Shown here: in pieces, positions 23,161 to 64,000 of the stretch | Layout: each line of letters begins with the position of its first letter | Position numbering within the stretch: position 1 is the first letter of the stretch | NCBI GenBank assembly: GCA_018902385.1 | Contig: JABSSW010000068.1 | Span: forward strand, 140,276 to 204,275 | Direction: 5' to 3' | Source of the DNA: Physcia stellaris | Taxonomy: Eukaryota; Ascomycota; Lecanoromycetes; Caliciales; Physciaceae | Length of the DNA stretch: 64,000 bases | The notes under the pieces: generated by a model | Database searches by the model: none | The model's input: only the letters and a program-made list of their open reading frames with translations | What the model was told of the DNA's origin: nothing | Translations under genes and position numbers: made by a program

Positions 23161-23420
23161 TTTCGTATCACCTTAGGCGACAATCAATGTCTCTTGGAAT
23201 CTCTCCAGGCCTTCTATGGGTTGGCGATGCCAAGCAAACGGTAAAGTCGCAAGCTGTTGGAGGGTAGTAGAAAATACAGGAAACCAGGTAAATGACAAAC
23301 GGGCTAATCAGAGCGTGCTTATGTAAACAACCCATAGACTTGGCATTTGATCGGGGTTTCAGCCAACCGGATAAGTTTTTCGTGATTTGTTCGACTAATT
23401 TTGCGTCTCAACATTTTGGC
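23161..23420. other. F-box gene promoter and composition boundary
   Basis: Ordinary composition continues to about 23,380 (a GGGGTTTCAGCCAACCGG stretch lies at 23,353-23,370). Within roughly 50 bases it changes to AT-rich DNA lacking CpC/GpG. The boundary is estimated by eye; I found no terminal inverted repeat or target duplication at the edge. Confidence 0.6.
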
Positions 23421-24680
23421 AATCAAAAAAACTGCGATTTTACATTATTAGTTTCGTTTTAAATTCAATATATTACATACATTATTGAACGTCATATTAA
23501 AATAATAAAAATCAAAAAATTCTTTTCGATGTTAATTCATTCGAAATTGAAATTTTGCGTTGATTCATGATACGTTTCAAATTTCGAACATTTTTGTCGT
23601 TTTTGTTTCGTTTTGTATTGAATGACTCGAACACAAATACATTTATTAAATTTTTCATTTAGATTTGAGATGCTCGAGAGTTTGCTCAAACAAATTGAAA
23701 AAACAAAAAATTATTTGTGAAATCAAATGTACTGAATTTTGTTAACATGTACGATGATTGAATCTCAAACGCATTTAAAATTTGAATTTGAGCGAAATTT
23801 GTTGCATAAATGTTCGATATGAAAATGAATTCATTGCGATTGTTTGTTTGAAAATATGTTTTTTTTTCTGTGTTCTCTACAAAAATATTCGAGATGATTT
23901 GAAATTTTTTCGACGAATAATTGATTTGTGAAAATTGCGATGATTCGTTCACAAAAATGATGTCGTTTTCGATTGATTTAGTTATCGAAAATTTTTTCAA
24001 CATCATTTTTTTTGTTATTGCGTTTTTAGTTTTTTTTGCTTTCACGAGTCGTTTTCGTGAAAAAATTTTGATTAAATTTTGTGCGTTGTTTTCGATTACA
24101 ATTTGTTTAATTTCAATCTCATCAAAAAATGACACGAAAAAATCAATAGCAATTGACACGATCGCGACGTTTTTATCGATTCATTTCGATAAAATTCGAT
24201 ATTTAATTTCTAATGTTGAAACAACATTCGTAATGATTGTGATAATTTGAAATTCATTTTCAATCGAAAAATTTTTCACATTCGAAGAAAATTTGCGATT
24301 CGAACGTTCGATAAATTTGTAAAAAATTTTTTTCATAAAATGTTTTTCGTATCAAATGATTTCTTGTTTTTTGAAACAATGAAATTTGAAAAGATTTAAT
24401 CATTTTTGATCATGACAACGATCAATTGATTTTTCAATTTTTTGACAAAATTAAACGAGATCAAATTTGTTGCGAGTCTACGATCGTTGAATTTTTTAAA
24501 AACATCATTTGCAACGAAATGTTGATTTCGCTCTTCGAAATTGAAAAATTATGAATGATGAAAAAAGATTTTCTTTGATTTTAATAATTGATGAATATTT
24601 GTTTTGATTTCGTTGTAAACGATAAATGCAAAACTCATCATTATCGACGTCACAATTTCAAACTTCTTCAAAATTTTTTT

Positions 24681-25204
24681 GATGTCGATAATGATTGTTT
24701 TTTTAACAAACGATTGTTTTCGATTGTCAAACGATTTTGATCAAATTACGATTTTTAATTTCATTTTCAATAATGATTTGAATCAAACGCATCAATGAAA
24801 TTCTCGATAGATATTTTGAATTGTGATTTACATCATATTGAAAAATAGAAATGATAAATAATTCAAACACTTTATGCGAATTGACAACAACAATAATTTT
24901 TTCTCAATCGTATTGAAAACAAAACGATCAATGCATTTCAAATTTTTGTATTATTGATGTCAAACATTGTTAACACGCTCGAAATCATTCAAAAACGTCT
25001 TGAATTTTTCGACAATTTTCACGATAACGAATTCGCGTGAGCATTTTGTAAATCGAAAATGATAAACGAAATAGTTTTGCTAAAATCAAAAATTGAAAAA
25101 CGTTCAAAAATGAATTTAGAAATAGAATTCAAAGTCATTGCAACAACTAGAACAATTTTGATTTGAAAACAAAAATACGCATATATCAATTAATCGTAAA
25201 TCGA
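24681..25204 (+). repeat. direct repeat family R1, copy a
   Basis: About 520 bp alignable with copies at 25577-26010 and 57151-57641, all in the same orientation. Differences are overwhelmingly C/T and G/A transitions. It carries a relic minus-strand frame (MRLIQITIENEIESRDL type) also present in the other copies. The element class is unknown. Confidence 0.85.
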
Positions 25205-25576
25205 CGCAAATCAATGTTATCGAGTTTAAATGAAATCGAGCATTTCGTGATTTGATTTACTCGTCGTATTGAATGAGCATCGAGATTGTTTATTCATTTT
25301 TCGACGATTTTTTCATCGACGAACAACGTTACGATCGAAATTTTTGATGACTCGTCGAAATCGCAATCGTTGTCGTCAATCATTGAAACGATGTTTTTCA
25401 ATTTTATGATGTTTGTCATCTAGTCAATTGAAACGTTTTAGTTCGAGATATGAAATACACAATCGACAATTGATTTTATGAAATTTCGTTTCATTTCGTT
25501 TTTGAAAATATATATATATATATTTAAAAATACAAATTCTTCACTCGAATTCAAAATATTGAATAGTACATTTCTC

Positions 25577-26010
25577 GATGTCGACAATAATTGCTTTTTT
25601 GACAAACGATCGTTTTCGATTGTCAAACGATTTTGATCAAATCACGACTCTCAATTTCATTTTCAATAGTGATTTGAATCAAACGCATCAATGAAACACT
25701 CGATAGATATTTTGAATTGTGATTTACATTATATTGAAAATTAGAAATGATAAATAATTCAAACATTTTGTGCGCATTGACAGCAACAATAACTTTTTTT
25801 TCAATCGTATTGAAAACAAAACGATCAATGCATTTCAAATTTTTGTATTGTTGATGTTAAACATTGTTAACACGCTCGAAGTCATTCAAAAACGTTTTGA
25901 ATTTCTCGACAATTTTCACGATAACGAACTCGCGTGAACATTCTGTGAATCGAAAATGATAAACGAAATAGATTTGTTAAAATCAAAAATTGAGAGAAAT
26001 TCGAAAATGA
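25577..26010 (+). repeat. direct repeat family R1, copy b
   Basis: Lies 896 bp downstream of copy a and runs into an (AT)n tract at ~26,018-26,034. A second (AT)n tract with the same flanking sequence lies at ~25,506-25,522, about 510 bp upstream, so a longer unit was duplicated locally. Confidence 0.85.
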
Positions 26011-26589
26011 ATTTAAATATATATATATATATATGTAAAAATACAAATTTTTCGTTCGAATTCAAAATACTGAATAATACATTCAAATGAGTTGAAATGA
26101 TAAAAAATTATTCGTGAAATCAAATATATATCGTACTTTGTTGACATGTACGATGATTGAATTTCAAACGCATTTGAAATTTAAATTTGAATTAAATTTT
26201 TCGCATAAATGACAAATATGAAGATGATTTTTTTGCGATTGTTAATTGTTAAACAAAATTCAATGTCAAATTCAATGAAACAAACTAAAAAGTTTTTTGA
26301 AACAAAAATAAAAAATATATCGATTGTACGTCGATTAACAAATGATTGAATTTGCGTCAAAAATTGAATCAAATTTTGTGCGCGTGTCGTTGATTCATTG
26401 AATGTAAAATGATAGAATTTGAGTCAAATTTGAATCAAAAATTGAGCGAAAGTCAATTATCAATCGATTGCTCATTAATTGTGAAATATTCGAATTTGAT
26501 TTAATTTGATTCAAATTCTGTGCACGTCTCACTGATTCATTGATTGTGAAATGATAGATTTTGAATCAGAATTTGAACAATTAATTCGT

Positions 26590-27887
26590 TGATTGTGAGA
26601 TGACGAGTTTTAAATCAAAATCTGAATCAAAAATTGAGCGAAAATCAATGATTAATCGATTGTTTATTAATTGTGAAATATTCGAATTTGATTTAATTTG
26701 ATTCAAATTTTGTGCACGTGTCAATGATTCATTAATTTCATTGTGAAAAAATAGAAACAAAATTTGCGAAATGAATCGCTTCGAGAATATAAAAATAAAT
26801 TAAAATTCAAATGTTTAAAACAAAAATTTGACAATGATTGTTTCGAGAAAATCATTGCGAATGTATATTCGAATAACGATTGACGACTAACGACGAGATA
26901 TAAAAATTGATGATGATGTTTCGAAATCTTTTCTGTTTAACGTAACAAATGTTCAAATGCGAAAAATAAAAGCATATTGAAAAACGTTCGAACGAAATTC
27001 TTTCAAATTTTCGATGTTCAAACATTTCGAAACAATATATTTACGAATTATTTTCATAAATTCGAATTTTTGTAAAATTTGTTGAAGCAAAAAGTTCTTG
27101 TTATGTATTTTGTCAATATCGATTAATTAGAGAATTTATAGATTGAAAACAATCAAAATCGAAAATGATAAAATTTGAATCAAAATTCGAACATAAATCA
27201 ATGAAAATTATATTATTTATTGATTGTGAAAAAACTGAATTTGATTCAAAATTTGAATTAAATTCTGTGCACGTTTCATTGATTCATTGATTGTGAAATA
27301 TAGAGTCTCGATCAAAATTTGAATCAAAAATTGAACATAAATCGATGATTAGTCGATTGCTCATCAATTGCGAAATATTCGAATTTGATTTAATCTGATT
27401 CAGATTCTGTGCACGTGTCAATGATTCATTAATTTCATTATGAGAAAATAGAAACAAAATTTGCGAAATGAATCGTTTCGAAAATATAAAAATAAATTGA
27501 AATTCAAATGTCTAAAACAGAAATTTGACAATGATTGTCTCGAGAAAATCATTGCGAATGTATATTCGAGCAACGACTAACGATTAGCGACGAAATATCA
27601 AAAAATGATGAATTTTCGAAATTTTTTCAATTTATTGTAACAGATGTTCAAACGCGAAAAATAAAAACATGTGAAAAAAAACTCGAATGAAAAAGAAAAT
27701 TCGAGCGAAATTTTTTCAAATTCTCAACGTTCAAACATTTCGAAACAATATATTGACGAAATATTTTGATAAATTCGATTTTTTGTAGAATTTGTTGAAA
27801 CAAAGATTTCGTGTTATGTATTTTGTTAGTATCGAGTCATTAAAGAATTCACAAATTGAAAACAATCAAAATCGAACATTGTAAATT
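26590..27887 (+). repeat. two-unit tandem repeat, period ~697 bp
   Basis: 26590-27190 aligns with 27287-27887 at an offset of 697 bases, with transitions and small indels. Each unit contains a GTGCACGTGTCAATGATTC motif. Shorter related segments with the same motif flank the units (26,388; 26,519; 27,269; 27,961), so the array grew from a smaller unit. No coding frame is recognised. Confidence 0.8.
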
Positions 27888-28276
27888 CTGAATAACATAA
27901 ATTAATGAATCTATTGACTGTGCGAGAATTGATTTTGAATCAAAATTTGAGTCAGAATTTGTGCACGTATCATTGATTTTTTGATTGAAATGAAAAAATT
28001 TGAATCGAAATCTGAATCGAAATCTGAATCAAAATTTGAATCAGAATTTGAATCAAAAGATTGAATACAAATCAACTGTTAATCGATTTTCAATTAATTG
28101 TGAAACGATAAAATTCAATTCAAATTCTAAAGCAAAAACTCAACACAATGAAAAAAACAATTAATTGCATGTTAATCATTAATTAACGCACAAAAATTGT
28201 CATGAATATCATGCAATAATGCAATTATGAATAAATAAATGATTGATTAATTAGAAAAATGTGTGTGAAAAAATAT

Positions 28277-28990
28277 TTACATGTTCGCGCTTAGCGAAGA
28301 TCGAAGACGTTTGAATAAAAAAAATTGTTCTAATTTGAAAACAATTTCGTTGTCATTGATTTCTCGACAAACATGATGTAAAATTCGATAATAGTAAAAT
28401 ATGATTTCGAAAATAGATTGCAAAGAATGTTGATTGCATAAATGCAAACTGTTGAAACGAAATTGACGATACATTTTTTGAACGTTTTGATACGAAATTT
28501 GATACAAAATTCGCGATAAATGAGTTTTTGAATGAAATGATTTGCTTCGATGTAAAAAAAAAAGAAAAAATGTTTTCGATTGCGATGCAGATTTCAAATT
28601 ATTAAATAAAAAAATTATCGATTGCGAAAATGTAATAAAAAAAATAAAATGATTCGAAACAACAAATTTCGATTTTTTCGCATGATAATCGCGAATATGT
28701 TCGTGTAATTTAATATTTCGTTGAATAATATTTGCATGCAAAAATCGTTAATCGAATTTTTTTTTGTTTTTTTGCAATTCGAATTTTTTCGATTTTTTTG
28801 TCGATTTGTTGTTGTTTTTTGAGCATACGTGTTTGCTCGTCACGCTCTCATTGTTTTTGACGAGTCAAACAGACTTTGTAAATTCGAATTTTTTCGATTT
28901 TTTGACACTTTTTGACTAGACGAATTTATTCGATTTGTTGTTGTTGTTTTGCGAAACGATTTTGCTCTATTTTTTGACGAGCGTAAAAAA
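28277..28990 (-). pseudogene. relic of C2H2-finger protein with Gln/Lys-rich coiled coil
   Basis: The minus strand shows a Gln-Ile-Lys-rich segment (~28,780-28,990). This is followed by the second half of a C2H2 finger (NIKLHEHIRDYH: Leu-x2-His-x4-His) and then ~130 residues of Phe/Ser-rich sequence. The upstream Cys pair is out of frame. Order and spacing match the better preserved relic at 43,813-45,370. This is probably the gag-like protein of an LTR element, mutated beyond function. Confidence 0.5.
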
Positions 28991-29906
28991 TTTGTTGATC
29001 AAAAATTTTGCGAATTTGTTGAATTTGCAAAACTCATCGACAATCAAAATTTCAATTTTGATGAATTTCGTAAAATCGTTGAAAAGCAATAGAATTAGAT
29101 ACGTCATCGAAAAAATGATTTAATGATAGAAATCAAAGCGATAATGAAATCATGACGTACGAATAATGAAAATAATGCGAAAAAAAAACTCGTGAACAGA
29201 TAGATAGATAAATGAATTTTGACTCAATGAGTGTAATTCAAATTGAATCAATCTGTTTCAAATTGATAATTAATGATATTTTTCTTGTTTAAATACGTCG
29301 TTTGTCTTTTTTGTCACAGTTTTTCATATCGAAAAATTGTGTAAAAAACGATTTTTTTTTTCATGAAATGTTTCGTGCGTGCGATAGTTCAAAGTTGCTG
29401 CATAATTTTTCGACGTAAAACGAAAATAAAAAAAATTCAATTATCGTGAACGCGATCACGCGACGAGATGAATATAAATATTCATTCGAAATTTCATGCG
29501 CGTTTCATATGTTCGAATTTTTTCTTTTGATGTTTTTGTTCTCGTCATTTTCAACATTGAAAGCAATTATCGATTCAAATTTCGATCGATCAATTTTTGA
29601 TTTTGTGAACATTTTTTTTGTTTTTCATTATTTTTTTCATTTTCATTCAAATTGCTTGATTGCTTTTTCAACATTCGATTTATCAATTTATCGTTTTCAA
29701 ACAATCATCTGTTTGTTATGTCAAAATTCATTTGATTTTTTGTTGATTTGCATTGAACACGACAATTCAACATTTTTTTAATTTTTTCAATTTGATTTTT
29801 TGTTGTCTCGAATCGTGTAGTCGAAACGTCGTAGAGCTCGAGCTTCTCTTCTACACGTCTGAATCAAAGATCGACTTTTTATTCGTATTTGGTTTCGCGA
29901 CATCAC

Positions 29907-30300
29907 TCAAATCAAACACTTTGCGAAGTTCATTATTCACACGAATATTGTGAATTTTGATAATGTAAAGCGACAAAATTGTTAATTCGATATCGAACTA
30001 CAACGCTCTAGCGAGATAATTGCATAATACATTGTGATTGTTGTGTAATTGAATTGTGCAACAATGTGAACGTTTTGTGAACGCAAATTTTCTTACATTT
30101 TCAAATTCAAAAATTGTCAAATCAAACACATTGCGCAATTCATTATTGCAACGAATATTTCGAAATTTAACAATGTAAAGCAACAAAATTGCTAATTCGA
30201 TATCGAATTACAATATTCTAACGAGATAAATGTATAATATGTAATGTTTGTTGCGCAATTGCATTGCGCATTGAACGTTCAATTGAACGTTCAATTGCGT
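29907..30300 (+). repeat. two-unit tandem repeat, period 210 bp
   Basis: The motif TCAAATCAAACAC recurs at 29907 and 30117. The following ~170 bases align between the units (both contain AATTCGATATCGAA and a GAGATAA..TGCATAATA-like segment). The right end has two adjacent TTGAACGTTCAA-type palindromes at ~30,273-30,297. Confidence 0.8.
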
Positions 30301-30312
30301 GACTTCAAGAAC

Positions 30313-30400
30313 TTCAATTCTGAAATAATTCTGATTATGCTGTTCAATTCTGAGATAACTCTGTTTATGCTGTTCAACTCTGAAATAACTCTGATTGCGT
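30313..30400 (+). repeat. 30-bp tandem repeat, three units
   Basis: Units begin with TTCAA(T/C)TCTGA at 30313, 30343 and 30373. The units still contain several CpT and ApG dinucleotides, unlike most of the isochore. Confidence 0.85.
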
Positions 30401-31079
30401 TCGAAATGTTTTGAGCTAAATCAATAATACTCGATAAAAACGCTAGTTATCAGTTTATCGTGCTGTTTTTGTGTAATATTGCAGTCGAAAACGTTCAAAA
30501 CAACGATTTACTCGATTTTCGACTCAGACTCTCTGGCGAGAAATGCTGACTTTTAGACTAGTCAGAGATTTGAGTAGCTGAGACAAATTTTTTGTTGTTT
30601 TTCGTTTGACATTCGATTTCACTCGTTTGATTTTTGATTGTTTCAAACTCGAAACGATTTCGCGACATTTTTTCATTTCAACGTTTGACGAATCGCGTTC
30701 AAAATTTAATCATGATTCATCAATCACAAAAAAATATCAATTATGTCACAAATTCATCGAAATCAAAAAATTGAATCAAAATTTACGTAAAAAACGTTTA
30801 TTCGCGTGATCATGAAAAGACAATCGATATTCTGTTCACGATCGTTAACAATTTGATCATTGAATACGATTTAACATCATTTAATTATACGCGTCACGAA
30901 ATAACATTCAAAAATATTTTAAAATAATATCGAAAATGAATGTATCAAAATGCGTTTTCGTTTAAATATGCAATTCAATTTTTTATCGCGAACGAATTCG
31001 AATGATTCGAGTTTTGAAATTAAACATTTTATTTTATCAAATCATTTTTGAATTGAATTCGAAAATGATCAATGTTTTT

Positions 31080-31920
31080 TGTTTGTTTCATCATGATTTG
31101 ATTTCGTGATGTTGATTTTCAATAAATTTTTTTCATTTCGTCTTTTTTGATTGTCAATTCGTTTTCTTTTCTCGTCAATTCGTTTTTTTTTTGTTTTTCG
31201 TTTGTGTTTTCACAAATCGTTTCGTTTTCGACGTTTTTTTTTGTTCAAACAACAATCGCGAATCAATTTTCAAACAAACTCGTTATACGAAAAAATGTAA
31301 ACGATTTTGTTATTTATTGTCAATCGATGCGACAAACTGTTCAAATATTTAACGCAATCGTGAAAAATTTGCAATTCGTGAATTTTTCAAATATGTTTGC
31401 TTTTAGCGTTGAACTATTTGTGAAATATTTGAAATATCATCAATTGTTTCGAATATTGAGAAATTCAAACGTCATGTCGAACGAAAATCATCAAAATTTA
31501 ATTTACGATTTGAATGACATTTGCGATATTAACATCACGAATGATGAATCGTTTCGTGTTGCAATAAAAATTCGTGTGAACAATGAATTATCATCGATGC
31601 GAATTCGAATCGTGATTAATGACGATTTCGATGCGCATTTTTTTCATCGATGAAAACAAAAAAATTCTCTAATGAATGCGCAGAAGTTTCATTTGACGAG
31701 AATTCATATCACGATATTTTTAGAAATTTTCAAACGAAAAATTTGACATCGCATGTCAAATTCAAAAACAACATTGCAACAAACGATACGTTTTTGTATT
31801 TTTTTCGAACATTATTTCAAATTTACGTCGTGACGTTGTTGAATTTCAAACAAACAAACGAAACAAATCAAACATTTTTTCGTCGTCAAATTCAAAAATC
31901 GTTTCACAATTTGACGTCAC
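31080..31920 (+). repeat. inverted repeat family R3, copy 1 (relic coding unit)
   Basis: Aligns with the reverse complement of 42,400-43,230. The plus strand carries a 168-aa open frame (31147-31653) and a following 116-aa frame (31650-32000). Their counterparts on the minus strand of copy 2 share long identical blocks, such as NVNDFVIYCQSMRQ and FKQTNETN. I do not recognise the protein. Similarity at the protein level is higher than expected for random decay (see findings). Confidence 0.8.
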
Positions 31921-32494
31921 AACGTCAAATTCATTCACAAACAAATCGTTTAAAAAAAAAACGAAAAATGATACGCAATTTTTCACGTTCGTCTCAATGA
32001 GCGATTTTTTGATCGATTCAAACGCATCAAAGCAATCTTTCGCGAAAATCGAAAAAAACGAAAAAAATGATATTCAACATGCGTTAATACACTATTCGCG
32101 ATGAACATTAAAAAAACTAATCGAAATTTAGCATTCAAATTTTTTCAAATTCGAAATTTATCGAGCACGTGCACGACAACACATGATCAAAAATTAAACA
32201 ATTTTTGAAATTAAACACGAACGACAATAACAAAAGCAAAATTCGAATTCATGATTTCAAAAAAAAAAATATTTTATTGACAATAAATTGCGATGTATTA
32301 TATGTTTAAATGCAATCAAAATCAAAATGATCAAATGAAAAATCTAATTGAAAATGAATTCGAATTGAACAAAATATGCGATGTTCGAAATCAATGTTGA
32401 ACATCATCATTAACATTGTAAATTTCAAACGATCATGACGATCGCGATAGCAATGTTTCGATATCAATGAATTCGAAAAAAAACGAAAATAAAA

Positions 32495-33513
32495 AAAAAT
32501 GAAAAATTTCATTACAACAATTTAAACATTGTTTTCTCGATGCGTCGTTAAATGTCAAATATTCAATTGTCGATATTTTTTTTTGCAAATGTTCGTGTCA
32601 ATCGAACAACGAATTCTATTATTGAAATTTTATCGATGAAATTACAATTTTTTTTGTTTTGAACAATTTTTTTGAACAATGAATTGAGTACATTCGAGAT
32701 TGAATTGATTTTCAAATCATTGACATTCATGTTTTCGTTTATCATTCGTCGACGAATCAAAATCTTTTCGAGCAAATCATGTCGTACAACAACGTTAAAC
32801 ATTTTGTTGAAATTAAAATCGACATTTTAAATTCGTTTCATAAATTGTCGTCGTTTCGATTTCGTTTGAATATTGATTTCGTTGAACAAATGAATTTGTT
32901 TGATTTAAAATCGAACAATTTTTGAATCGTCGACACATGACAAATTTTCAAAAAACGAAATGCAACATTGATTTTAACTCACAATTACAAATTTCAAAAA
33001 ATAAAAAAAAAAAAACATATCGAAAAATTTTATTTGAATCATTACGATTTGATCATCATGAATGAATGTCATTTTGTGAAAACGTCTCGCAAAAAATTTT
33101 GAAAAAATTTTAAAAACAATTCGATATGCGATCGACGTTGCGATTTTTGATGATAAAAATGTTTGAAACAATGATCGATCGCAATGTCGTCGTCGATTTG
33201 AACGAAACGATTTTTATGAAATCACGAAATTTGAAAAATTCAAAATCATCGATTTCATCAATTGCATTCGACGACGTTGATCAAAACAATCAAAAAAATA
33301 AAAACGATCAAAATGAAAAATGCGTTTGAAACGACACGAGATAAAACGATAACAACAATTCGAAAATTGTTTAATGTTTTTTCGCATGTTACAATAGTTC
33401 GTAACGATATTGCGCGATGAAAAAACGATAAATTATTATTTTTTTTTGAGTTCGTTGCTCAGTGAATTCAATTGAATTTTCTCGAAACATACGTCGTTGT
33501 TTTTCAAAATATG

Positions 33514-33550
<37 letters not shown>

Positions 33551-35017
33551 AAAATGTTGATTCAATTGCAAACAACGTGAAAACAAAATTGTAAACGAAA
33601 TACGCAATACAAAATCGTCAATTCGAATCGTTTTGAGAAATTCGATTTCAAACATTTATTCAATAGAATTCGTTTTGTGCGAGTGATAACGAATTTATCA
33701 ATCATAATTACATTGATTATCGATGTTCATCAGAAATGAATTAACGCGAAAATAAAAAAAATTTTCATGTCAACGAATGATGAATCGTTGATTCGTGAAA
33801 ACGTATTCGACGAAATGTATTCGCAAATTGTCGTTTGTTGTTTCAAATTTGATGTTTTGAAAAAATTATTGACGTATAAACATTCGAAAACGTTTGCGTT
33901 GATTATATCGCAATTTTCGAAAATTTGTTTAATAATTTTTGAAATAAATTCGTTTTCGAACAAATCGACATACATTTTTCTATTTTCTTTTTTTTAAATT
34001 TTTTTTAACGTATATTATGTATTGTGTCGCATGTAATATTAATTGCGATTTGTTGTTCAATATATACGAAAAGATTTCGCGTTCAAAAATCGATTGTTTT
34101 ATATATTTTTGATTTCGAACAAAAACGAAATTCAATTCGTCACGCTTTTCAAAAAAATATCGATGAAAATGACAAATCAATCGAGAAATATCAATCGAAT
34201 ATTTTGATAAACATCACAAACAAAATGAAAATTTCATTTAATTTCACAAGAACAATTGTAATAATTTTGATGAAATTCGTGTACAATTTTCAATTGATTG
34301 TTCAAATATTCAAACGAACACATCGTCAAAAACAATCGAATACGATGCATTTTTACGATTTTCACGAGCAAATTTGAATCGAAAATCTAATGAACAAAAC
34401 ACGTTTGTTCACAAAAATTTTAACGAAAAAAATTTTCGAAAATGCGAAAAACATCGCGAACGCTTTCATGATGATATGATGACATAAATATGATGATCGA
34501 AATTTGACAATTTTCAATGTAATATAATGAGCAATTAATTGAAAAATAATTTAACAATTCAATGACAATTCATGATGATTGTTTTCACACGCGCAAACAT
34601 CGAAATTTCAAAATTTTCGACGATTTCTATTTTTAGCACAAACTAAATTAAATTTCTTCGTTGTTAATCATTGTTGCAACGAGCATTGTTGTTTTTCAAC
34701 AACATCGAATCACACGATCGAAACAAAAAAAACGAACAAATTCAAAAACAACAACGCATGAACGACAATTCTAAACGAAAAAACGACGACAATAATACAC
34801 ACGTACGCGATCATGATTCATGAAATGAAAATTAAAACGTTTGATTTGTTTACAACAGAAAAAAAAGAAAAAACGAATCGCACGATCAAAAAGAAAAACG
34901 AAAATATAAAAAAATAAAAAAAAATGAAAACGTTTTATACGTCGTGCAAAATCAAATTTACAAACGTCGCACAATATCACACAATGATCATTGAAATTAC
35001 GATTTCAAAAATGAATA
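32495..35017 (+). repeat. inverted repeat family R4, copy 1 (~2.5 kb)
   Basis: Aligns over its full length with the reverse complement of 61,497-64,000. Shared frames include those at 33767-33997 and 34024-34377 (plus) and 32563-32802 (minus). The right edge is sharp, at AAAAATGAAT around 35,017. The left edge may extend further, because the partner copy runs off the window. It contains an uninterrupted run of 33 A at 33516-33548; the partner has a shorter interrupted T run. Element class not recognised. Confidence 0.85.

Positions 35018-37528: not shown

Positions 37529-37532
<4 letters not shown>

Positions 37533-37559
<27 letters not shown>
37533..37559 (+). repeat. poly-T tract (27 T)
   Basis: Uninterrupted run of 27 T. 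Long homopolymer runs here are expected where CpT and CpC are converted to TpT. Confidence 0.9.
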
Positions 37560-38031
37560 GTCATCACGTCGATTTTTCTTTTTCGCGTGACGTTTTTTAG
37601 CATCAGTTTTTTTTCTTTCAGCGACGATGTGTTTACTAGAAAGAAAATAATCGTAACGAAAGATGACGAATCGAAAAAAATGACGAATCGAAAATGTTTA
37701 ACGAGCGTAACAATCGATTGTTCGAAATTCATTGTGAATTGTGTATTTGACGTAAATAATCGTGCTTTTTGTAACGATTTTTTGTTTGATTTGATCAATC
37801 GATCATCGAAAATACGAAATTCGAATTTCACGATCAAATGAAACGTATTTTTTGTTATGTTCGAATTTACGTGTTTTTTGTCATCATCAAACGTTGTTAA
37901 AATTATTTCTTTTTCGTCGATGTGAAATTCTTCGATTTTGTTATAGTAAAATAACAAACTCATAATTAACATTTCGTACAGATGAATATCGTAACTGTTT
38001 TTGATTATTTAGAAAAATTTTGAACAAATGA

Positions 38032-38208
38032 TGTTACGAACGTGTTTTAGAAACATTGTCGCAAAATTGAAAAAAACACGTGATTAAAATTTTGACATTC
38101 GCAAATTTTACACAAAACATTTCGATTTTCATTTGTATTTACATATTTGCTTTTTAGATCAAATATTTTCGTTTTTGTTATTTATTGACTCAAACACGAC
38201 TTTTGACA
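38032..38208 (+). repeat. 5' LTR of the 38-kb element
   Basis: TGTTACG...TGACA, 177 bp; aligns with 39667-39838 and 56307-56475. Confidence 0.82.
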
Positions 38209-48440: not shown

Positions 48441-48530
48441 ACGAAAAGAAAATATCGCGAATTCGCGAAAATTTTCAAAAAAATACGTTTTTATTTATAT
48501 CGAGTCAAATTCAAAATAGATATTGATGAT

Positions 48531-48692
48531 TTTGATCGCTCAATTCAATCGTTCTATTCAACGATCGACGAGTAAATATCGCGAATTTTGATCGCTCAAT
48601 ACAATCGTTCTATTCAAAAATCGACGAATAAATATCGCGAATTTTAATCGTTCAATACGATCATTTTGTCGAAATGTCGCAAATAAATAGTG
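48531..48692 (+). repeat. 56-bp tandem repeat, three units
   Basis: Units begin TTTGATCGCTCAAT or TTTAATCGTTCAAT at 48531, 48587 and 48643. Each contains a GACGA(G/A)TAAATATCGCGAA-type block except the more diverged third. Confidence 0.85.
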
Positions 48693-50500: not shown

Positions 50501-50662
50501 GTGTTTTTCACGATTTTTCGTGTTTTCGTGTTTTTCGCGATTTTTCGTGTCTTTGTGCGTTTCGCGACTTCTCGTGTTTTTGTGCGTTTCGCGATTTCTC
50601 GTATTTTTGTGAATTTCGCGACTTCTCGTGTTTTTGTATTTTTCGCGATTTTTAGTGTTTTC
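50501..50662. repeat. 27-bp minisatellite, six units, open on both strands
   Basis: Six contiguous 27-bp units, consensus roughly GTGNNTTTCGCGANTTCTCGTGTTTTT. On the minus strand they read as a 9-residue repeat (K-T-R-E-V-A-K-R-T type) inside a 113-aa frame; on the plus strand as a hydrophobic 9-residue repeat. There are no unique spacers, so this is not a CRISPR array. The array is richer in CpG than its surroundings. Confidence 0.85.
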
Positions 50663-53600: not shown

Positions 53601-54239
53601 TTGTCGAAATTGATCATTGCTTCGAAGAATTCGAGACAATTTGACAATGTTTGTAAAAAATGTATGTAAAATGAAAAAAACACGTGAAATGAAAAATGTA
53701 TGAAAACAAAAAAAAATATGTGAACAATGAACGAGAAAATGCTCGAAATTTGTTGACGCGTCTATTGAATTATGTGAATGTAATTGAAATTTTCGAAATA
53801 TGTGAATATTCATTGTTATTGATTAAAAGTTTCTTTTTGTCATTGCGTTTCATCTCGATTTTTTGTTATTGTTTATTTATTTGATTATCGAAATATGTTT
53901 TTTTTTTTGATTTTATTATTGATTGTTTGCATCAAATTTCTAATTTGTTTAAACAATAAACAATTTTCGCATTGAAATTTTGATGTCAAATTTTATCAAT
54001 ATGACAATTTCAAAATCAAATGCGAATGACAAAAGATCGAGTTTTGTGTTTTGAGAATTTTTGTATGTGCATTTTTTTTTTTGATAAATGTGATTTGTTA
54101 TAACATTGAATAATAAATTTCGATCAATAAATACAATTAATTTGATTTACAATTTGAAAAAATCGAATCAACACGTCGCGACGAGTTTCGCACAATCGAC
54201 GATTCGAACAATTTCAACAATGAAATTTCTAAAATAAAT

Positions 54240-55230
54240 ATTCATTGCATAAATTGTCGAATCGTGCTATTAAATCGCGATTGTTTTTTGTTTTCGAATT
54301 GTTGTTCGACAATTAACGTCGACAATGTTGAATTTTTTCAATTTTCAATTTTCACGTTTTTTGTTCGAGTGTTCTATTTCGTCGACATACATAACGACGA
54401 CGAAATCGAAAAAATGAAATTCACGTTCACGAATCATTTCAATGTTACGTTTTCGTTTTCGATTTCAATTCATAACATTGTTACGATGATTGAATTGAAT
54501 TCAAACTTTTTTCGTTTTAATTTCGACGAGAACGAATCATCGTTTTTTGTTCGTCGTCAATTTTTACAAACGTTTCTTTTCATCGACGTGATCGATCAAA
54601 AATCGTTTTTTTCTCGAACAAAACACGTTTTGAATTCAAATACGAAAATATTCAATTCGAAAGTCGCTCAACGACAACAAACTAAAAAATACTTCGTCGT
54701 GAAAATCGTGATTTCGATAAATCAATGACAAAACGAAAACATGTGACGAACGATTTTTGTTATAAAATTAGCGAAAAACGCAATAGATTTTCGAATGCTC
54801 AAAAAAACGATGATTTTTTTTTTCGCGACGCAACACAAAAAAAAAATTGATATTGAAACGAGATGTTTTGAAAAATTTAATGATAAGATGATTCATTGAT
54901 GAAATTGACAAATTGAATAGAGTTTGAAATCGTCATAAACATCAACATCAAAAATGAATCACGAAAAATATGTTACTAGCGCGAATTGATGAGTGACAAA
55001 GAAAATTGACGTGATTGAAAAAAGAAAAAAATCGAAAAACAAAGAAATGAAAATCGAAAATATGAAAAAAAAATTCGCTAAAAATTCGAAAAAGAACAAA
55101 AAAGAAAACAAAATGAAAAAAAGCGATTATCATAATTTCGATAGCGAAAAATTCAAAGATGATGACATGAAAAAAAATGAACGACGAAAATCGAAATTTA
55201 ACGTTCAACAATCGATAATGTTATAAAACA
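54240..55230 (+). repeat. direct repeat family R6, copy 1
   Basis: The part around 54,244-54,350 matches 57,885-57,990. The Lys-rich frame (54993-55226) matches 58,190-58,390, where one frame shift separates DYHNFD- and DYHDSR-like segments. The intervening sequence is longer here. It carries a 154-aa relic frame (54264-54728) of unknown family. Confidence 0.6.
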
Positions 55231-56306
55231 AATTTTGAAAATTGCGAATACAATTGAATAAATAAATAATTACAACATGAAAATATAAAATATTTAATAA
55301 TTTGCGTGCGTTTTGATTTGAATTTTTGACATCACAACGATTATTGTTTTTTCGAGAAATATATTGTTGCATGAACATCATGAATTTGAAATCGATTAAA
55401 AATCTTTGATGATAGATTTTGCAATCATGAAATTGATTCAAATATCGTGTAATTTGATTTAAACGATTAAAAGTTGATTCGAAATTTTTCAAACGTTTTA
55501 GTCAAAATCGACACGACTTTAAATCGAAAAACAATGAAACATTTTCTCGACGAAATTGCTCGAGTATATTAATTTTCACTCAATTAAATATATGAACGAA
55601 ATGTGTTGATATGTTTACGATGAATTTAACATCGTCGTCAACGAGTTCATTTTGTGTAGAATGTTGAAACGTCGAAAATGAATTCACAAAAAAAAAATTT
55701 TTTTCTTTTTTTTTTTACATCATTCTTTCTGTTTTACAGTTTGAATCGAAATTAATTCATTCGATAAACGTTTTTTCGTGTTTTACAACACGATCAAAAT
55801 CAACGTGATGTTTGATGTTTACGATTTTGTGATTGAAAAACTCATCAATTCATTTTTTTAAATGAAACGATCGTTTGCGAACGCATTGAAAATCGAAAAT
55901 ACGCATAAACACGATGAAATCGAAAAATCAACGTTGTTACGTTGTTCAAAAAAATGAAAAATGATTTATATTTTTTGCTTTACGTTGAAAAACTACATCG
56001 TTTGAAAAATACATCATGAATTTATATTTCGTTATACAAAAAGTCAAACTTTTTTTACATTTCGCTGAAATCAAAATTTTCAACAAGATTTTCATTCGCA
56101 TGATTTCGATTTACATTTTCGTTTACATTTTCGTCGTTTTTTGAATTTTCGCTTTCGAATATTCACGTTTGTTGCATTTGTTTCGATCATTTCAATTTTC
56201 GCAATGATTTATTCAATTATCGACGTTTCAATCAACGATATTTTTCGAATCGTCGATCGATGAGAAAAAAAATATAAAAGAAATAATCGTTTTGAAACGA
56301 AAATAG

Positions 56307-56475
56307 TGTTACGAGCGTGTTCGAAAACATTATCGCATAATTGAAAAAAACATTTAATTAAAATTTTGACACGCGCATGCAAAACATTTCGATTTTCATT
56401 TGCATATATTTTTTTTTTTTTTTAGTTTTAGAATTTTCGTTTAATGAATATCGATTATTATGCACGATTGTAACA
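56307..56475 (+). repeat. solo LTR of the 38-kb element family
   Basis: Begins TGTTACGAGCGTGTTCG and ends CACGATTGTAACA, 169 bp, alignable with 38032-38208 and 39667-39838. Flanks (AATAG / CACAT) do not match, so it is either a recombined solo LTR or the end of a broken element. Confidence 0.7.
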
Positions 56476-57150
56476 CACATAATCGTTCGAAATTTGAAAC
56501 GATAATTGCTTTTTGTGATGAAATTGTGCAAAAACATTGAGAAACAAAATTCGAAACTACGAAACGTGCATGAATTTTTGAATCAATGTTAATATACGTC
56601 TCGACGCGTGTTTGCGTTGTTAAAAAGATTTGATGTTCGTTGTTGAATCAATGATTTGACAAATGTGTCGAGCTCTGATATGACGTTCGTGTAATAAATT
56701 TTCTAATTAATTTATTTATCGAATGTATTGTATGTCACATTATAATTCAATCATTTTGTATTTCAACAAATTATGATTTCGATCGATTTCGAAACGATCA
56801 AAATAAAAACGTCGAATGTTGATGACATTACGACTCGACTTCTCGCGCAAAATATGATTTAAAAACGTTATAATCGATATCACGATTTCATTCATTTGAA
56901 TTTGATCGTCAAAATAGATTTGAAATTGATTGAATTGTAATGTCGCAATGCGTTTAATCGCAACACGATGAATGTTATCGACACGAAATTGTTGATTACG
57001 TTTTACGTCAAAATTTATCATAAAACGAAATTTTTCGTCGACATTTTTCATATGTTTACAAATTATGAGCATGAATTATCAAAATTGAAACATCATTTAT
57101 CATGCAAACTTGTTTTCATCAAAAAAATTTCAAAAGAAAATTTGATTTGC

Positions 57151-57641
57151 AACGTTTTCGATTGTTAAACGATTTTGATCAAATCACGACTCTCAATTTC
57201 ATTCTCAATAGTGATTTGAATCAAACGCATCAATGAAACACTCAATAAATATTTTGAATTGCGATTTACATCATATTGAAAAATAGAAATGATAAATAAT
57301 TTAAACATTTTGTGCGAATTGACAACAACAATAGTTTTTTTTTCAATCGTATTGAAAACAGAACGATCAATGCATTTCAAATCTTTGTATTGTTGATGTT
57401 AAACATTGTTAACACGTTCGAAATCATTCAAAAACGTTTTGAATTTTTCGACAATTTTCACGATAACGAACGCGTGAGCATTCTGTGAATCGAAAATGAT
57501 AAACGAAATAGATTTGTTAAAATCAAAGATTGAAAAAAATTCAAAAATGAATTTAAAAATAGAATTCAAAATCATTGCAACAACTAGAACAATTTTGATT
57601 TAAAAACAAAAATACGCATACATCAATTGATCGTAAATCGA
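57151..57641 (+). repeat. direct repeat family R1, copy c
   Basis: Distant copy of the R1 unit, about 32 kb from the other two, so the family is dispersed and not only a local tandem. It matches copy a to the shared right end (CGTAAATCGA). Confidence 0.85.
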
Positions 57642-57869
57642 ATGCATCGAAAATTGAAAAAATGTCGAATGTTGAATTGATCAATGATCATTTTCTAATG
57701 TTTATTTTTGTTTTTTTTCAATTTTTCTAGAGTTTTATGAAGAACAGAATTAAATTTTATTCATGAAACATTTTTTTCTATTGTAATTGAACTCTCGACA
57801 CGATTTTTTGAGCGATTTTTTCAAATTAATTTTTCGTTTCGCAACGTTCAATGATTTTCGTCGTTCGTT

Positions 57870-58400
57870 TTTAAAAATGAACACTCATTGCATACATTTG
57901 TGAATGATAACGATTTTTTATTTCGAATTTGTTGTTCATCAATTAATATCGACAATTTTATCAAATTTATTTTCGATCATGATCGTGATCGCGTCGTCGA
58001 TTTTGTAAAAATCATCGAAATCATCAATTTTTCGAAATCTTTTTCATCTTTTGCGTTATCGTGTTGTTTCATCTATCAATATTCGAGCGATAACGATCGA
58101 GTTTGATCAAATCAATAAAACGTACAATTCAATTGAATTGAATGAAAACACGTCGCAAATGATTTCGAAAGATTTTAATATGAAATGATTTGATGAAAAT
58201 GATTTTGTGTAAATTCAACAAAATATCAAACAAAAAAATAACAAAAATCAAAAAAAACGCATTCAAAAAAACATTCAAAAAGAAAAGCGATCGAGAGACT
58301 ATCATGATTCTCGATGTAAAAAATTCGATGAAGACGAAAACGAAAAGAAAAAAAAATTTGAAAAACGAGTATTTGATATTCAATTGAAATCAATTATTTT
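57870..58400 (+). repeat. direct repeat family R6, copy 2 (internally shorter)
   Basis: Shorter counterpart of 54240-55230 in the same orientation, lacking the middle part. Recognisable by shared CATTGCATA..TTCGAATTTGTTGTTC-like sequence and a Lys-rich frame. Confidence 0.6.
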
Positions 58401-61400
58401 GTGATGAACGATAATTGATGTAACGAAAATTGCGAAATGAAATGAACATAAAAGATATTGAAAAGAATTACGATAACATTATTTAGACGAGAATTTTTTT
58501 CGTTCAATCGCATTATTTTCAATCAAATAAAAATGTTGCAATTGATTGTTTACATATTTCAAACGTTTTTCATTTTGTCATTGATATTTTTCTGTTCGTT
58601 TTTACAAAAATGAATTTACAAAAAGATGCTGTAATTGCTATTTTATTCAGAACAAATTCGTAACTCGATGATTTACAATTGTGTGTAAATGAATCAAATA
58701 ACTAATATCAAACGACAACAAAATTTCTTCACAAAAATTTTTTCACAATTTTTATTATATTTATTTTTTCATAACAATTGCATTCATGACGATAACATCG
58801 AATCGACAGACGTGATGTCACGAATTGTGATCGTAAAATGATTGTTTTTCGAATTTGTTTGAACAACGATCGTTCGTTGATGTTATTTTCGAATTTGTTC
58901 ACGCGTTTTTTTCAATTTCTGTTTCAAATTGTTGATATGAATTTCAATCGTCTAGAAAACATCGCGAGAATTGATTTTCATTTTTTTTACAACAGTAGCA
59001 ATTTGAAATCGATGAAAAATGTCGAAATACAAATTTTTTTTTTCATCGTCGTTGACGATTGACTCAGTCGTGATGATGAAAAAAAATATAATGATTTGTC
59101 GTTTGTAACAATCGATCAAAATTTGAATTCGAATTTTCAAATCGATCGATTTCGACGAAACGTTTACACAAAGTCTAAACAAAAAAAACGATTGAAAAAA
59201 AAATCATTGACGACGAATCATTCATTTCGATTTGACATTAATTATCGATCGATTGTCGACAAATTCAAATATTAAAAAAAAATGTGAATATGAATTTTGA
59301 ATCGAAATTCATACATTGTAAATTATATGAATTGAAAATTGTCAAAAATCAACGATGCGACTTTTTTCGTTCTTGAAAAGTCGCGATTTTTGAGATGTAT
59401 TTTTATGAATTTCGCTATTTGCAATTTTTCGTTAAATCAAATCAAAATAAATCATCAATGCAAATCAAAAAAAAAATGTTAATTCAATCGTGTGTATCAA
59501 AAATTAACGTGACGAATTTTGAAAAAAATCAACGCATAATTTTTCAAAAATTCGATATTTTGCAATCAATTCGATCAAAAATATCAATTGCATTAACGTC
59601 AACATTTAAATACAAATCGTCGAAAAAACGACGTTTTTTCATCTTTTTTCACATTTCATTTTTTTCATTTTGTTTTTTTAATTCATTTTTCATTTTCAAT
59701 GCGCTTTTCAATCGATTTTTCAATTTTTTTTCATTTTTCATTTTTTTTTCACGATTTATTTCGTCTCTTTCGATTCATAGAAACGAAAAACGAAAATTGC
59801 AAAACGAAAAATATTCAAATAAAATCAGAAAATTCGACAAAAATTGAAAATATGACTAGAAACAAATCGAATTTAAAGCAAATTTAATTCAATATTAAAC
59901 AATATTTGATGCAAAACAATTAATTCAATTGCGAAAATTTTGAAAATTGCGTTCGAATGTAAAAAATTATCGCGATTACGCGATTCATAAATTGTATTCA
60001 AACATTTTCGATATTTATTTTTAACATCATTCAATTGTTGTCGAAATCATTCGACACGATCGAAAATAATTTATATATGTTCAAATCGATTCACATGCGA
60101 TTGAAAAATCACGTTGATTGATTTAATTTTATTTCGAATGTCATGTCATATTTCGAATTTTAGATTAACATCAAACACAATCGTGTTATCGACATATTTA
60201 TTTGTCGCGACAATTTTGATCATGTGTTCAAAATTTTTATCATCATAAATTAGCTGTGAGACAACGAAATGCGATTTAAAATTTGTTCAAATTTTTTAAA
60301 ATCGATTTTGAACGAATCAATATTGATTAAAAGCAATGCGAAACAATATTTTTGATTATATAATTAATCGACTCGAAATCGATTTTCGACGTCAAAATCA
60401 ATGAAACATTTTTTTCGTCGAATCGAAAATTTCAAATCAAATACAATATTTGTGTTCGAAACAACAAGTAAAATTCTATTCATCAAACGAAACATCAAAT
60501 CGATTGTATCATGAAACAAACAATTTCGTTATATTGATAAAATCATTACATTCACGATTATCGCATTGAGAATCGCGTATGTGCAATAATTTATATGTAC
60601 GTTGCATCAAACAAAACGTGTTTGTAAATTTTTTAACAAATTTGTAAATAGAACGTCAAACATTACAATTTTATTCATTTCACACTCGCTTTTTACGAAA
60701 TTTTGTTAACGAAAATGATTTCAATAATGATTATAAATTTTCATGCGTGTGCGAAAAAATTTAAATATTGAAATTTTGCGCGACTTTGCGACTATATTAT
60801 ACGAATAAATTACAACGTTAAAATCATAACATTAACGATTTCAACATCAAAAGTCGAACGTTAAAGTTGTGATGTTTTGTTACACATTTTAGCGTCATTT
60901 TGATTCACGTTCACATCAAAAAACTTATTATCAAAAAATAATGAATGCATTCATCTCGCATGTTGTTCGACAAATTCGAATTTTCGATGCATTGTTGAAA
61001 TTTAATTCAAATTCTAATCAAATTTTTTCAAAAATTTTCGCATCGATGACAAACTCGTCGTCGATATCAAATTTGATATTTTGTTGAATTTATCAAATTT
61101 CGATGTTCTTTTCAATTTGTATTTGACGAAAATTGAAATCGCGTTGAATTAAAATTTCATTTGCATTCGATAAACATTTAAATCGCGTTCAAATTATAAA
61201 CAGAAATTTTTTTGAATTTTTCATTTAATGAAACTTTGAATTTTTTTTTTCGAATTTTTTTTCAATTTGATTGAATTGTTAGACGAAATTTCATAAACGA
61301 ATTGAACGTCAAACAAGAAAAATATAATTCTTGATCGTGATATAAAAAAAATATATGACAATTTTGAAATTGCATGATTTGAAAAAATTGAAATTTTTTT

Positions 61401-61496
61401 TTGAAAATTTCATTTTTTTTTCTCGTTTTCAAACGACGATTTATTTCGAAAACGATCGTTGTTTTGATGACTTTTTACATTTTTATCGATCATTTC

Positions 61497-64000
61497 ATTC
61501 ATTTTTGAAATCGTAATTTCAATGATCATTGTGTGATATTGTGCGACGTTTATAAATTTAATTTTGTACGACGTGTAAAACGTTTTCATTTTTTTTAATT
61601 TTTTCATATTTTCGTTTTCTTTTTTGATCGTGCGATTCGTTTTTTTTTTGTGAACAAATCAAACGTTTTAATTTTCATTTTATGAATTATGATCGCGTAC
61701 GTGTGTATTATTATCGTCGTTTTTTCGTTTAAAATTGTCGTTCATGCGTTGTTGTTTTTGAATTTATTCGTTTTTTCTGTTTCGATCGTGTGATTCGATA
61801 TTGTTGAAAAACAACAATGCTTGTTGCAACGATGATTAGCAACGAAAAAATCTAATTTAATTTGTGTTAAAAATAAAAATCGTCGAAAATTTTGAAATTT
61901 CGATGTTTGCGCGTGTGAAAACAATCATCATGAATTGTCATTGAATTGTTAAATTATTTTTCAATTAATTGCTCATTATATTACATTGAAAATTGTCAAA
62001 TTTCGATTATCATATTTATGTCATTATATCATTATGAAAACGTTCGCGATGTTTTTCGCATTTTCGAAAAATTTTTTCGTCAAAATTTTTGTGAACAAAC
62101 GTGTTTTGTTCATTAGATTCTCGATTCAGATTTGCTCGTGAAAATCGTAAAAATACATCGAAAAATTCTGTTTTTGACGATATGTTCGTTTGAATATTTG
62201 AATAATCAATTGCGAATTGTACACGAATTTCATCAAAATTATTACAATTGTTTTTGTGAAATTCAATGACGTTTTCATTTTGTTTATGATGTTTATCAAA
62301 ATATTCGATTGATATTTCTCGATTGATTTATCATTTTCATCGATATCTTTTTGAAAAGCGCGACGAATTGAATTTCGTCTCTTTTCGAAATCGAAAAACA
62401 TGTAAAACAATCGATTTCTGAACGCGAAATTTTTTTGTATATATTGAACAACAAATTGCAATCAATATTACATGCGACACAATGAATAACATACGTTAAA
62501 AAAAATCTAAAAAAAAGAAAATAAAAAAATGTATGTCGATTTGTTCGAAAGCGAATTTATTTCAAAAATTATTAAACAAATTTTCGAAAATTGCGACATA
62601 ATCAACGTATGCGTTTTCGAATGTTTGTGCGTCAATATATTTTTCAAAACATTAAATTTGAAACAAAAAACAACAATTTGTCGATACATTTGATCGAATA
62701 CGCTTTTACGAATCAATGATTTATCATTTGTTGACATGAAATTTTTTTTTATTTTCGCGTTAATTCATTTTTGATCGACATCGATAATCAATATAATCAT
62801 GATTGACAAATTCGTCATCACTCGCACAAAACGAATTTTATCGAATAAATGTTTGAAATCGAATTTTTCAAAACGATTCGAATTGACGATTTTGTATTGC
62901 GTATTTCGTTTACAATTTTGTTTTCACGTTGTTTGCAATTGAATCAACATTTTAATTTTTTTTTTCTTTTTTTGTTCTATCATATTTTGAAAGACAACGA
63001 GATATGTCTCGAAAAAATTTAATTGAATTCACATAACAACGAGTTCGAAAAAAAAATAATAATTTTTTCAAATTTCATCGCGCAATATCGTCACGAACTA
63101 TTGCAACGAACGAAAAAACATTTTTCAATTTTCGAATTGTTGTTATCGTTTCATTTCGTGTCGTTTCAAACGCATTTTTCATTTTAATTGTTTTTATTTT
63201 TTTGATTATTTTGATCAACGTCGTCGAATGCAATTGACGAAATCGATGATTTTAAATTTTTCAATTTTCGTGATTTTATAAAAAAATCGTTTCGTTCAAA
63301 TCGACGACGATATTGCGATCGATCATTGTTTTAAATATTTTTATTATCATAGATCGCAACGTCGATCGCATGTCGAATTGTTTTTGAAATTATTTTCATG
63401 ATTTTTTATTACGCGTTTTTACATAATGACATTTATTTACGATGATCAAATCGTAATGATTCAAATAAAATTTTTCGATATGTTTTTTTGTTTTTTTATT
63501 TTTTTGAAATTTGTAATTGTGAATTAAAATCAATGTTGCATTTCGTTTTTTGAAAATTTGTCATGTATCGACGATTCAAAAATTGTTCGATTTTGAATCA
63601 AACAAATTCATTTGTTCAACGAAATCAATATTCAAACGAAATCGAAACGACGACAATTTATGAAACGAATTTGAAATATCGATTTTGATTTGTACAAAAT
63701 GTTTGATTTGATTGTACGACATTGTGTGTTTGAAAAAATTTTGATTCGTCGACGAATGACAAACGAAAATTTGAATATCAATGATTTCGAAATCAATTCA
63801 ATCTCGAATGTGCTCAATTCATTGCTCAAAAAAATTGTTCAAAACAAAAAAAATTGTAATTTCATCGATAAAATTTCAATCATAAAATTCGTTGTTCGAT
63901 TGACACGAACATTTGCAAAAAAAATTATCGACAATTAAATATTTGACATCGTCAAACGCATTAAAAACAATGTTTGAAATGTTGCGATGAAATTTTCATT
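61497..64000 (-). repeat. inverted repeat family R4, copy 2 (continues past window end)
   Basis: Reverse-orientation copy of 32495-35017. Frames at 62126-62461 and 62507-62737 (minus) and 63690-63938 (plus) match those of copy 1. Alignment still holds at base 64000, so the repeat is truncated by the window. Confidence 0.85.

Follow-up and report, generated by a model that had tools for sequence, protein, structure and literature searches.

Why should a long AT-rich stretch of fungal DNA have lost nearly all of its CC and GG while keeping both CpA, the usual target of repeat-induced point mutation (RIP), and CpG, the dinucleotide lost through CpG methylation decay? The question is raised by a stretch of 64,000 nucleotides from Physcia stellaris (Ascomycota, Lecanoromycetes; assembly GCA_018902385.1, contig JABSSW010000068.1, positions 140,276 to 204,275 of the forward strand), hereafter the window and numbered from its first base, of which the part beyond about position 23,420 is referred to as the block. 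An earlier note on this DNA had proposed a C-to-T process favouring a 3' pyrimidine, distinct from classical CpA RIP, a proposal that is well supported by full-length counts, mutation models and repeat pairs. With a probability of about 0.62, the block consists of dead repeats, of long terminal repeat (LTR) type and others, brought close to saturation by a RIP-type C-to-T process whose enzyme prefers CpC over CpT. Published work is cited here from the accessible parts of each paper.

Loss of CC and GG from the block

The left part of the window (bases 1 to about 23,400) has a G+C content of 49.9% and ordinary dinucleotide use, and that of the block is 26.7%. Over 23401-64000 the plus strand holds no CC and three GG (at 23418, 29891 and 30535), against 1370-1530 CC+GG in 100 mononucleotide shuffles of the same bases and about 4960 expected at the density of the left part. 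The final 33,464 bases of the window, past the last GG, contain neither dinucleotide; the longest such gap in the left DNA is 81 bases. The edge of the block is sharp: there are 51 CC/GG in 23001-23500 and none in 23501-24000, and in a 50-bp scan the normal density ends at 23369 and is followed by the lone GG at 23418, which gives a boundary about 50-80 bp wide. On the left, CC/GG and CT/AG are normal in all seven stretches counted, six of which lie between listed open reading frames (ORFs) of at least 120 aa, the other (22600-23370) lying mostly inside an ORF and containing another of the seven. The profile of the block is thus not seen in the intergenic DNA counted on the left, the unaffected flank being 23.4 kb of one locus only.

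Within 23401-64000 the plus-strand cytosines are followed by A 2459 times, by G 2321 times, by T 504 times and by C never, and the guanines are preceded by T 2732 times, by C 2321 times, by A 520 times and by G three times, so that the two strands are affected alike (CT 504 and AG 520; CC 0 and GG 3). The corresponding odds ratios over both strands are 0.002 for CC, 0.257 for CT, 1.305 for CA and 3.196 for CG, with 0.393 for TA, 1.433 for TpC/GpA and 1.338 for AA/TT. CpG is therefore the most over-represented dinucleotide of the block, in agreement with the earlier estimate of about 2.9 times expectation. The two standard RIP indices had been put at about 0.3 (TpA/ApT) and 1.7 ((CpA+TpG)/(ApC+GpT)) from a hand sample; at 0.41 and 1.41 over the whole block they keep their direction away from RIP, not their size, the sample having overstated CpA relative to CpG. 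By The RIPper thresholds as quoted in PMC10998396, none of 80 one-kilobase windows is RIP-positive (product index at most 0.61, substrate index at least 1.03). The CpC index (CpC+GpG)/(TpC+GpA), defined in the RIPCAL paper among the indices that are off by default (PMC2621366), is 0.0004 in the block vs 0.86 on the left.

The rule behind this composition was modelled by simulated mutation of both strands of the left DNA, the predicted dinucleotide and trinucleotide profiles being compared with those of the block; because this gene-rich DNA only stands in for the ancestor of the block, the fitted rates are approximate. A preset rule that always changes CpC to TpC, changes CpT with a rate of 0.8 and alters nothing else lies at a dinucleotide distance of 0.0205. 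Fitted to trinucleotides, a model with four 3'-neighbour rates (CpC 1.0, CpT 0.86, CpA 0.05, CpG 0) reaches a Kullback-Leibler divergence (KL) of 0.0068, against yardsticks of 0.0065 (one half of the left DNA compared with the other) and 0.0029 (one part of the block compared with another), and two preset 3' models reach 0.0084 and 0.0117. A single 3'-neighbour rule reproduces the trinucleotides of the block about as well as the reference halves match each other. Models of CpA RIP (distance 0.196, KL 0.76), of CpG decay (KL 1.39), of uniform C-to-T change (distance 0.116), of 5' context (distances 0.16-0.17 vs about 0.02 for the 3' CpC/CpT rule) and of change at the second C of CC (KL 0.102) were rejected, as were CpA+CpT RIP and CpH models. 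Less strongly excluded is a model changing either C of CC plus CpT (KL 0.0207), so that some CC-to-TT or second-C change is possible. The surviving dinucleotides imply that CpC was mutated at least about 3 times faster than CpT, and CpT about 9-40 times faster than CpA.

CpT depletion varies along the block, the CT/CR ratio of its sub-blocks ranging over 0.053-0.164: it is stronger in 31143-37500, 42396-43169 and 61497-64000 (0.053-0.068) than in 23420-31100 (0.164), differences that may reflect element age or copy number. The slightly less mutated stretch at 29500-31000 is perhaps single-copy or later-included DNA. Surviving CpT is also weakly tied to further neighbours, CTG being lowest (0.09 of the left density) and CTA highest (0.29), and GCT outlasts ACT in 23420-64000.

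Repeat copies and LTR elements

Repeats within the block allow the same contexts to be followed between copies. Of 21 alignments spanning 100 columns or more, nine reach 84% identity or higher (5245 columns, with some overlap) and twelve stay below that level; transitions whose 3' neighbour differs between copies were set aside (45 in the nine pairs, 43 in a set of seven independent pairs that includes the non-overlapping 26347/27236 and 39264/44192). The nine pairs show C/T differences at 132 of 170 CpT, 116 of 702 CpA and 42 of 573 CpG sites, along with 106 transversions. In the seven independent pairs the normalised differences are 100/126 for CpT, 103/581 for CpA and 36/492 for CpG, and the excess of CpT over CpA (p about 6e-40) persists without the largest pair (3e-25). 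The twelve older, overlapping alignments give 86/103, 54/296 and 46/188, respectively. In raw counts CpA keeps up with CpT (116 against 132 in the nine pairs, 103 against 100 in the seven), the lead of CpT appearing only once differences are normalised to available sites.

Neither the nine pairs nor the seven hold a CpC site in any copy. Since copy differences reveal only contexts that are not yet exhausted, the exhaustion of CpC hides its lead from the alignments; CpC must be the prime target, and the change from CC to TC follows from composition, no copy retaining CC. Published CpT signals in CpA-depleted repeats (e.g., PMC6180176, PMC7882544) may reflect the same exhaustion effect. The earlier note had counted about 40 transitions at CpT, 17 at CpA and 6 at CpG in three repeat sets, namely the three copies of a repeat termed R1 and the LTR pairs of two elements, E1 and E2. 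A recount returned 38, 19 and 7 (24/14/6 in R1, 8/2/0 and 6/3/1 in the LTR pairs). Its ordering, with CpT first, holds over CpA after normalisation and gives way at the top, where CpC now stands ahead of CpT; CpA-to-TpA did not emerge as the commonest normalised change.

The three R1 copies (441 columns, with 6 mixed-context sites set aside and 17 columns showing other changes) display the gradient site by site. A cytosine before T is retained in three, two or one of the copies at 3, 7 and 17 sites, a cytosine before A at 49, 11 and 3, and a cytosine before G at 34, 3 and 3.

A further claim, that CpA is a stronger target than CpG, was rejected, as it hangs on one large pair, without which the counts are 37/249 and 22/204 (p 0.21); in the twelve older alignments CpG lies, if anything, above CpA. 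CpA and CpG are minor targets that these counts do not rank. In several older short pairs (48172-48438, 26319-27434) CpG differs as often as CpA or more, and in the pair 48172/48300 it does so at 7 of 13 sites vs 3 of 13 for CpA, CpG thus not being spared everywhere.

The LTR pairs place the mutations in time. The two LTRs of one element are identical when it inserts, and those of E1 are now separated by 12 transitions and 2 transversions, those of E2 by 10 transitions and 1 transversion; mutation therefore followed insertion. Paired LTRs with a 5-bp target-site duplication, the structure of an LTR retrotransposon, are found exactly in E1 (AATGA at 38027-38031 and 39839-39843) and, in E2, only if mutation in context is assumed. 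The E2 flanks, GATAT on the left and AATAC on the right, can both be derived from a duplicated GATAC by changes confined to CpT/ApG, and so follow the rule base by base, provided that GATAC was indeed the duplicated word and that ATCGTAACA is the end of the LTR, which its mirror-image start TGTTACGAT suggests. In the left flank the C before the T of the LTR is now T and the G after a C is kept; in the right flank the G after the A of the LTR is now A and the C before a G is kept. The three bases beyond the assumed LTR end, AAT, agree in both copies too.

Being short and heavily mutated, E1 and E2 are non-autonomous or decayed; six read-through frames over the two elements gave no Pfam match, to gag-pol domains or any other, at E values up to 1. 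Pfam-recognisable transposon domains were likewise not found in the read-through frames of the block that were scanned (plus strand, 23421-33422, 31001-37602, 37001-47002 and 48001-58001; minus strand, 23421-33422, 38001-48001 and 54001-63999; E up to 0.1 in one scan and up to 1 in the others). The sole match in these frames, to DUF6859 (E 0.1), is sub-threshold at 13.1 bits vs a cut-off of 27.1. In IMG/VR, one ORF of the block had 12 pattern matches, none of them confirmed as a relative, and the E1 LTR pattern had no match. Elsewhere in the block, 56229-56442 is a diverged single copy akin to the E1 LTR (73-77% identity) and possibly a solo LTR, and tandem repeats of about 27 bp at 50486-50661 have an open frame on each strand (plus, 50163-50734; minus, 50356-50730).

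Coordinates of the features described in the window
Feature	Position	Strand	Remarks
AT-rich hypermutated block	23420-64000		Nearly without CC/GG, CpT-poor, CpA and CpG kept; extends past the window end
Sharp block edge	23370-23420		Adjoins three stop-to-stop ORFs (21253-23172, minus)
Slightly less mutated stretch	29500-31000		Residual GG at 29891 and 30535, more CpT, GC about 0.30
E1, short LTR element	38032-39838		LTRs 38032-38208 and 39667-39838
E2, LTR element	43688-46255		LTRs 43688-43859 and 46084-46255; ends TGTTAYGAT...ATCGTAACA
R1 copy 1	24675-25124	plus	Repeat alignment
R1 copy 2	25571-26021	plus	Repeat alignment
R1 copy 3	57113-57561	plus	Homology with copy 1 runs on to 57641
2.5-kb repeat, copy A	32498-35016	plus	90.8% identity to copy B
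2.5-kb repeat, copy B	61497-64000	minus	Inverted; cut off by the window end
Repeat overlapping open frames	31143-31921	plus	87.5% identity to 42396-43169
Inverted partner of 31143-31921	42396-43169	minus	Repeat alignment
Carrier-protein ORF	386-2506	minus	After the AMP-binding ORF; weak condensation match below the Pfam cut-off
AMP-binding ORF	2507-3967	minus	Pfam
ORF with MFS match	5730-6338	minus	Pfam, below cut-off
L-ornithine N5-monooxygenase, SidA-like	8980-10396	plus	Pfam; split over two ORFs
Haem-dependent N-demethylase-like ORF	12892-13632		Pfam
Weak ankyrin-repeat match	19778-20329		Pfam

Ten of the 52 ORFs listed in all were scanned against Pfam on the left. The SidA-like gene, whose first ORF has best-scoring solved relatives named L-ornithine N(5)-monooxygenase, the AMP-binding and carrier ORFs and the weak MFS match lie within the same 10 kb and possibly form a siderophore-type cluster. 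Taken together, the genes of the left part look normal and probably belong to a filamentous ascomycete. Of the three ORFs at the edge, the one tested (21253-22122, minus) had no Pfam match.

A probable RIP-type process and its rivals

An altered 3'-neighbour choice in an enzyme of the RID/DIM-2 type is the most economical account of these observations. Duplicated DNA would be recognised by its repetition, probably in the sexual cycle, whose premeiotic phase is the time of RIP, and a cytosine methyltransferase, presumably of the RID and/or DIM-2 kind, would act on it on both strands, reading the 3' neighbour in the order CpC > CpT >> CpA and CpG; a 3' pyrimidine would replace a 3' adenine as the preferred neighbour, and the targeted cytosines would finish as thymines. 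As in RIP, C:G-to-T:A transitions are found on both strands (strand-symmetric counts) and dominate the LTR pairs. Repeats and LTR elements sit in the block, itself only partly repeated within the window, and the left DNA is unaffected. CpN signatures are described as differing among fungi, transposable element families and DNA methyltransferase sets (PMC4352252; PMC6180176), and a review gives CpT as the context that Neurospora DIM-2 prefers for methylation (PMC13297926), so that specificity can vary within this enzyme class. Additionally, CpA and CpT signatures were tied to RID-bearing species by Amselem and co-workers (PMC4352252).

Several points weigh against this account. The hallmark of RIP, a preference for CpA with a TpA-rich product and depletion of CpA+TpG, is absent, and the process, which resembles RIP in other respects, is not to be filed as canonical RIP. 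Dim2 of Zymoseptoria tritici is reported to prefer CpA and hardly to methylate CpT (PMC8016269), so DIM-2 alone does not predict CpC/CpT. Within the window, repetition can be demonstrated for part of the block only, and targeting by repetition is therefore something that we infer. The block frames scanned hold no Pfam-recognisable transposon domain, and the two copies of the 2.5-kb repeat differ by 48 transversions in 2489 columns, which argues that slow decay contributes. Moreover, the ancestor is represented by gene-rich DNA, and the fit becomes worse, without being absurd, once the second C of CC is allowed to change as well.

Slow decay is the core of an alternative that is unlikely but deserves weight. 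A methyltransferase preferring CpC/CpT would keep the AT-rich block permanently methylated, and its 5-methylcytosine would decay to T with no repeat-triggered burst. The CpT preference of Neurospora DIM-2 suits this alternative too, as do the transversions in old copies and a preferred context that is saturated with a graded remainder of CpT. It fits the sharp edge poorly, and LTR pairs with 10-12 transitions vs 1-2 transversions are nearer to directed mutation than to general ageing.

Composition does not distinguish a C-to-T change at CpY from a G-to-A change at RpG, each being the other read from the opposite strand, and an RpG-directed mechanism is therefore possible. Methylating agents produce the same order of contexts, with C>T at NpCpC and NpCpT (COSMIC SBS11). 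It is conceivable, though improbable, that a compartment-targeted RpG/CpY mutator other than a CpA-type RIP methyltransferase, either guanine-acting or a new cytosine-editing enzyme, erased almost all CC/GG from the repeats; such a mutator would go unnoticed by the TpA/ApT and CpA-substrate indices with which RIP is scored. Guanine damage confined to the compartment, of the O6-alkylguanine kind or through another modifying enzyme, is a shade more doubtful still. The order GG > AG >> TG, CG expected of it mirrors the one observed (G-to-A after a purine, as CpC > CpT read from the other strand), but a diffuse chemical agent or a repair defect would also mark the left 23.4 kb, which is normal in CC/GG and CT/AG, and the sharp edge requires targeting. 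We know of no fungal enzyme that modifies guanine in an RpG-directed way, a point on which no search was made.

The remaining explanations are very improbable. CC is among the targets of AID/APOBEC-like deaminases and of ultraviolet dipyrimidine mutation, but specificity for the 5' neighbour is not seen: TpC, one of the main ultraviolet targets, is abundant, and the 5'-neighbour and second-C models fit poorly. A sequencing, base-calling or assembly artefact, which the near-total absence of a dinucleotide brings to mind, is opposed by the ordinary frequency of CC/GG in this contig as far as 23369, by the equal treatment of the strands and by repeat copies bearing different substitutions in the same contexts; the abundance of AA/TT argues against homopolymer loss. 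Classical CpA RIP or CpG methylation decay (DNMT1/DNMT5/Masc2) could account for an AT-rich block beside normal genes and for C-to-T transitions between copies, yet is refuted for this window by the retained CpA and CpG, the low TpA/ApT, the lack of RIP-positive windows and simulated profiles far from the block (KL 0.76 and 1.39) compared with the fitted model (0.0068).

If a RIP process with a CpC/CpT enzyme is indeed at work, the dinucleotide targeted by a genome defence can change altogether, and a genome of this kind would be labelled RIP-free when scored by TpA/ApT and (CpA+TpG)/(ApC+GpT). Surveying 1,239 fungi with k-mers instead of RIP indices, a 2025 study concludes that a CpA preference is common to RIP-like defences (PMC12543289); as a general rule, this would be contradicted by the block. 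The way in which the enzyme reads the base would become directly testable with two RID/DIM-2 proteins that choose opposite 3' neighbours. Furthermore, DNA free of CC/GG cannot use proline (CCN) or glycine (GGN) codons, so that genes trapped in it would be destroyed in a distinctive way.

Comparison with known systems

In the accessible literature, in which subscription papers were thinly covered and a prior description is possible, no account was found of CpC as the main target with CpA spared. The same order of contexts is shown by SBS11, the O6-methylguanine signature, in which NpCpC > NpCpT; it is genome-wide, chemical and found in tumours, whereas the effect in the block is confined to one compartment. 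The CpG-type signatures of Microbotryum and Tuber (Masc2/DNMT1-class) likewise consist of C-to-T changes in transposons (PMC4352252), but CpG is over-represented in the block (3.2).

CpC itself has appeared in other fungi. In Rhizoctonia solani AG8 it is the commonest class of single-nucleotide polymorphism by spacing (214 bp genome-wide), but these counts are unnormalised, the CpC polymorphisms are more widely spaced in repeats (301 bp) than they are in genes (185 bp), and the bias is a CpG one in the authors' description (PMC4014442). In Stagonospora nodorum repeats CpC is depleted beside CpA (PMC2621366), and in Monilinia double changes from CpC to TpT are reported (PMC8959702); in both, as far as these sources describe, CpA remains the main target, unlike in the block.

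CpT-associated RIP signatures are on record too, CpT-to-TpT being prominent in alignments in Magnaporthe, Botrytis, Sclerotinia, Anisogramma, Colletotrichum truncatum and RIP-positive control genomes (PMC4352252, PMC10998396, PMC6180176, PMC7882544). There, according to the available text, CpT accompanies a CpA signature or RIP-positive indices, the C. truncatum element Copia-1 having a substrate index of 0.12, whereas the block has a substrate index of 1.41 and has lost CpC.

RIP in Neurospora crassa (RID, DIM-2) offers a parallel, with both-strand C:G-to-T:A transitions in repeats, a sharp-edged AT-rich block beside normal genes and dead LTR elements. The difference lies in the target: in the Physcia block it is CpC > CpT instead of CpA, so that TpA is low, CpA and CpG survive and the standard indices are negative.

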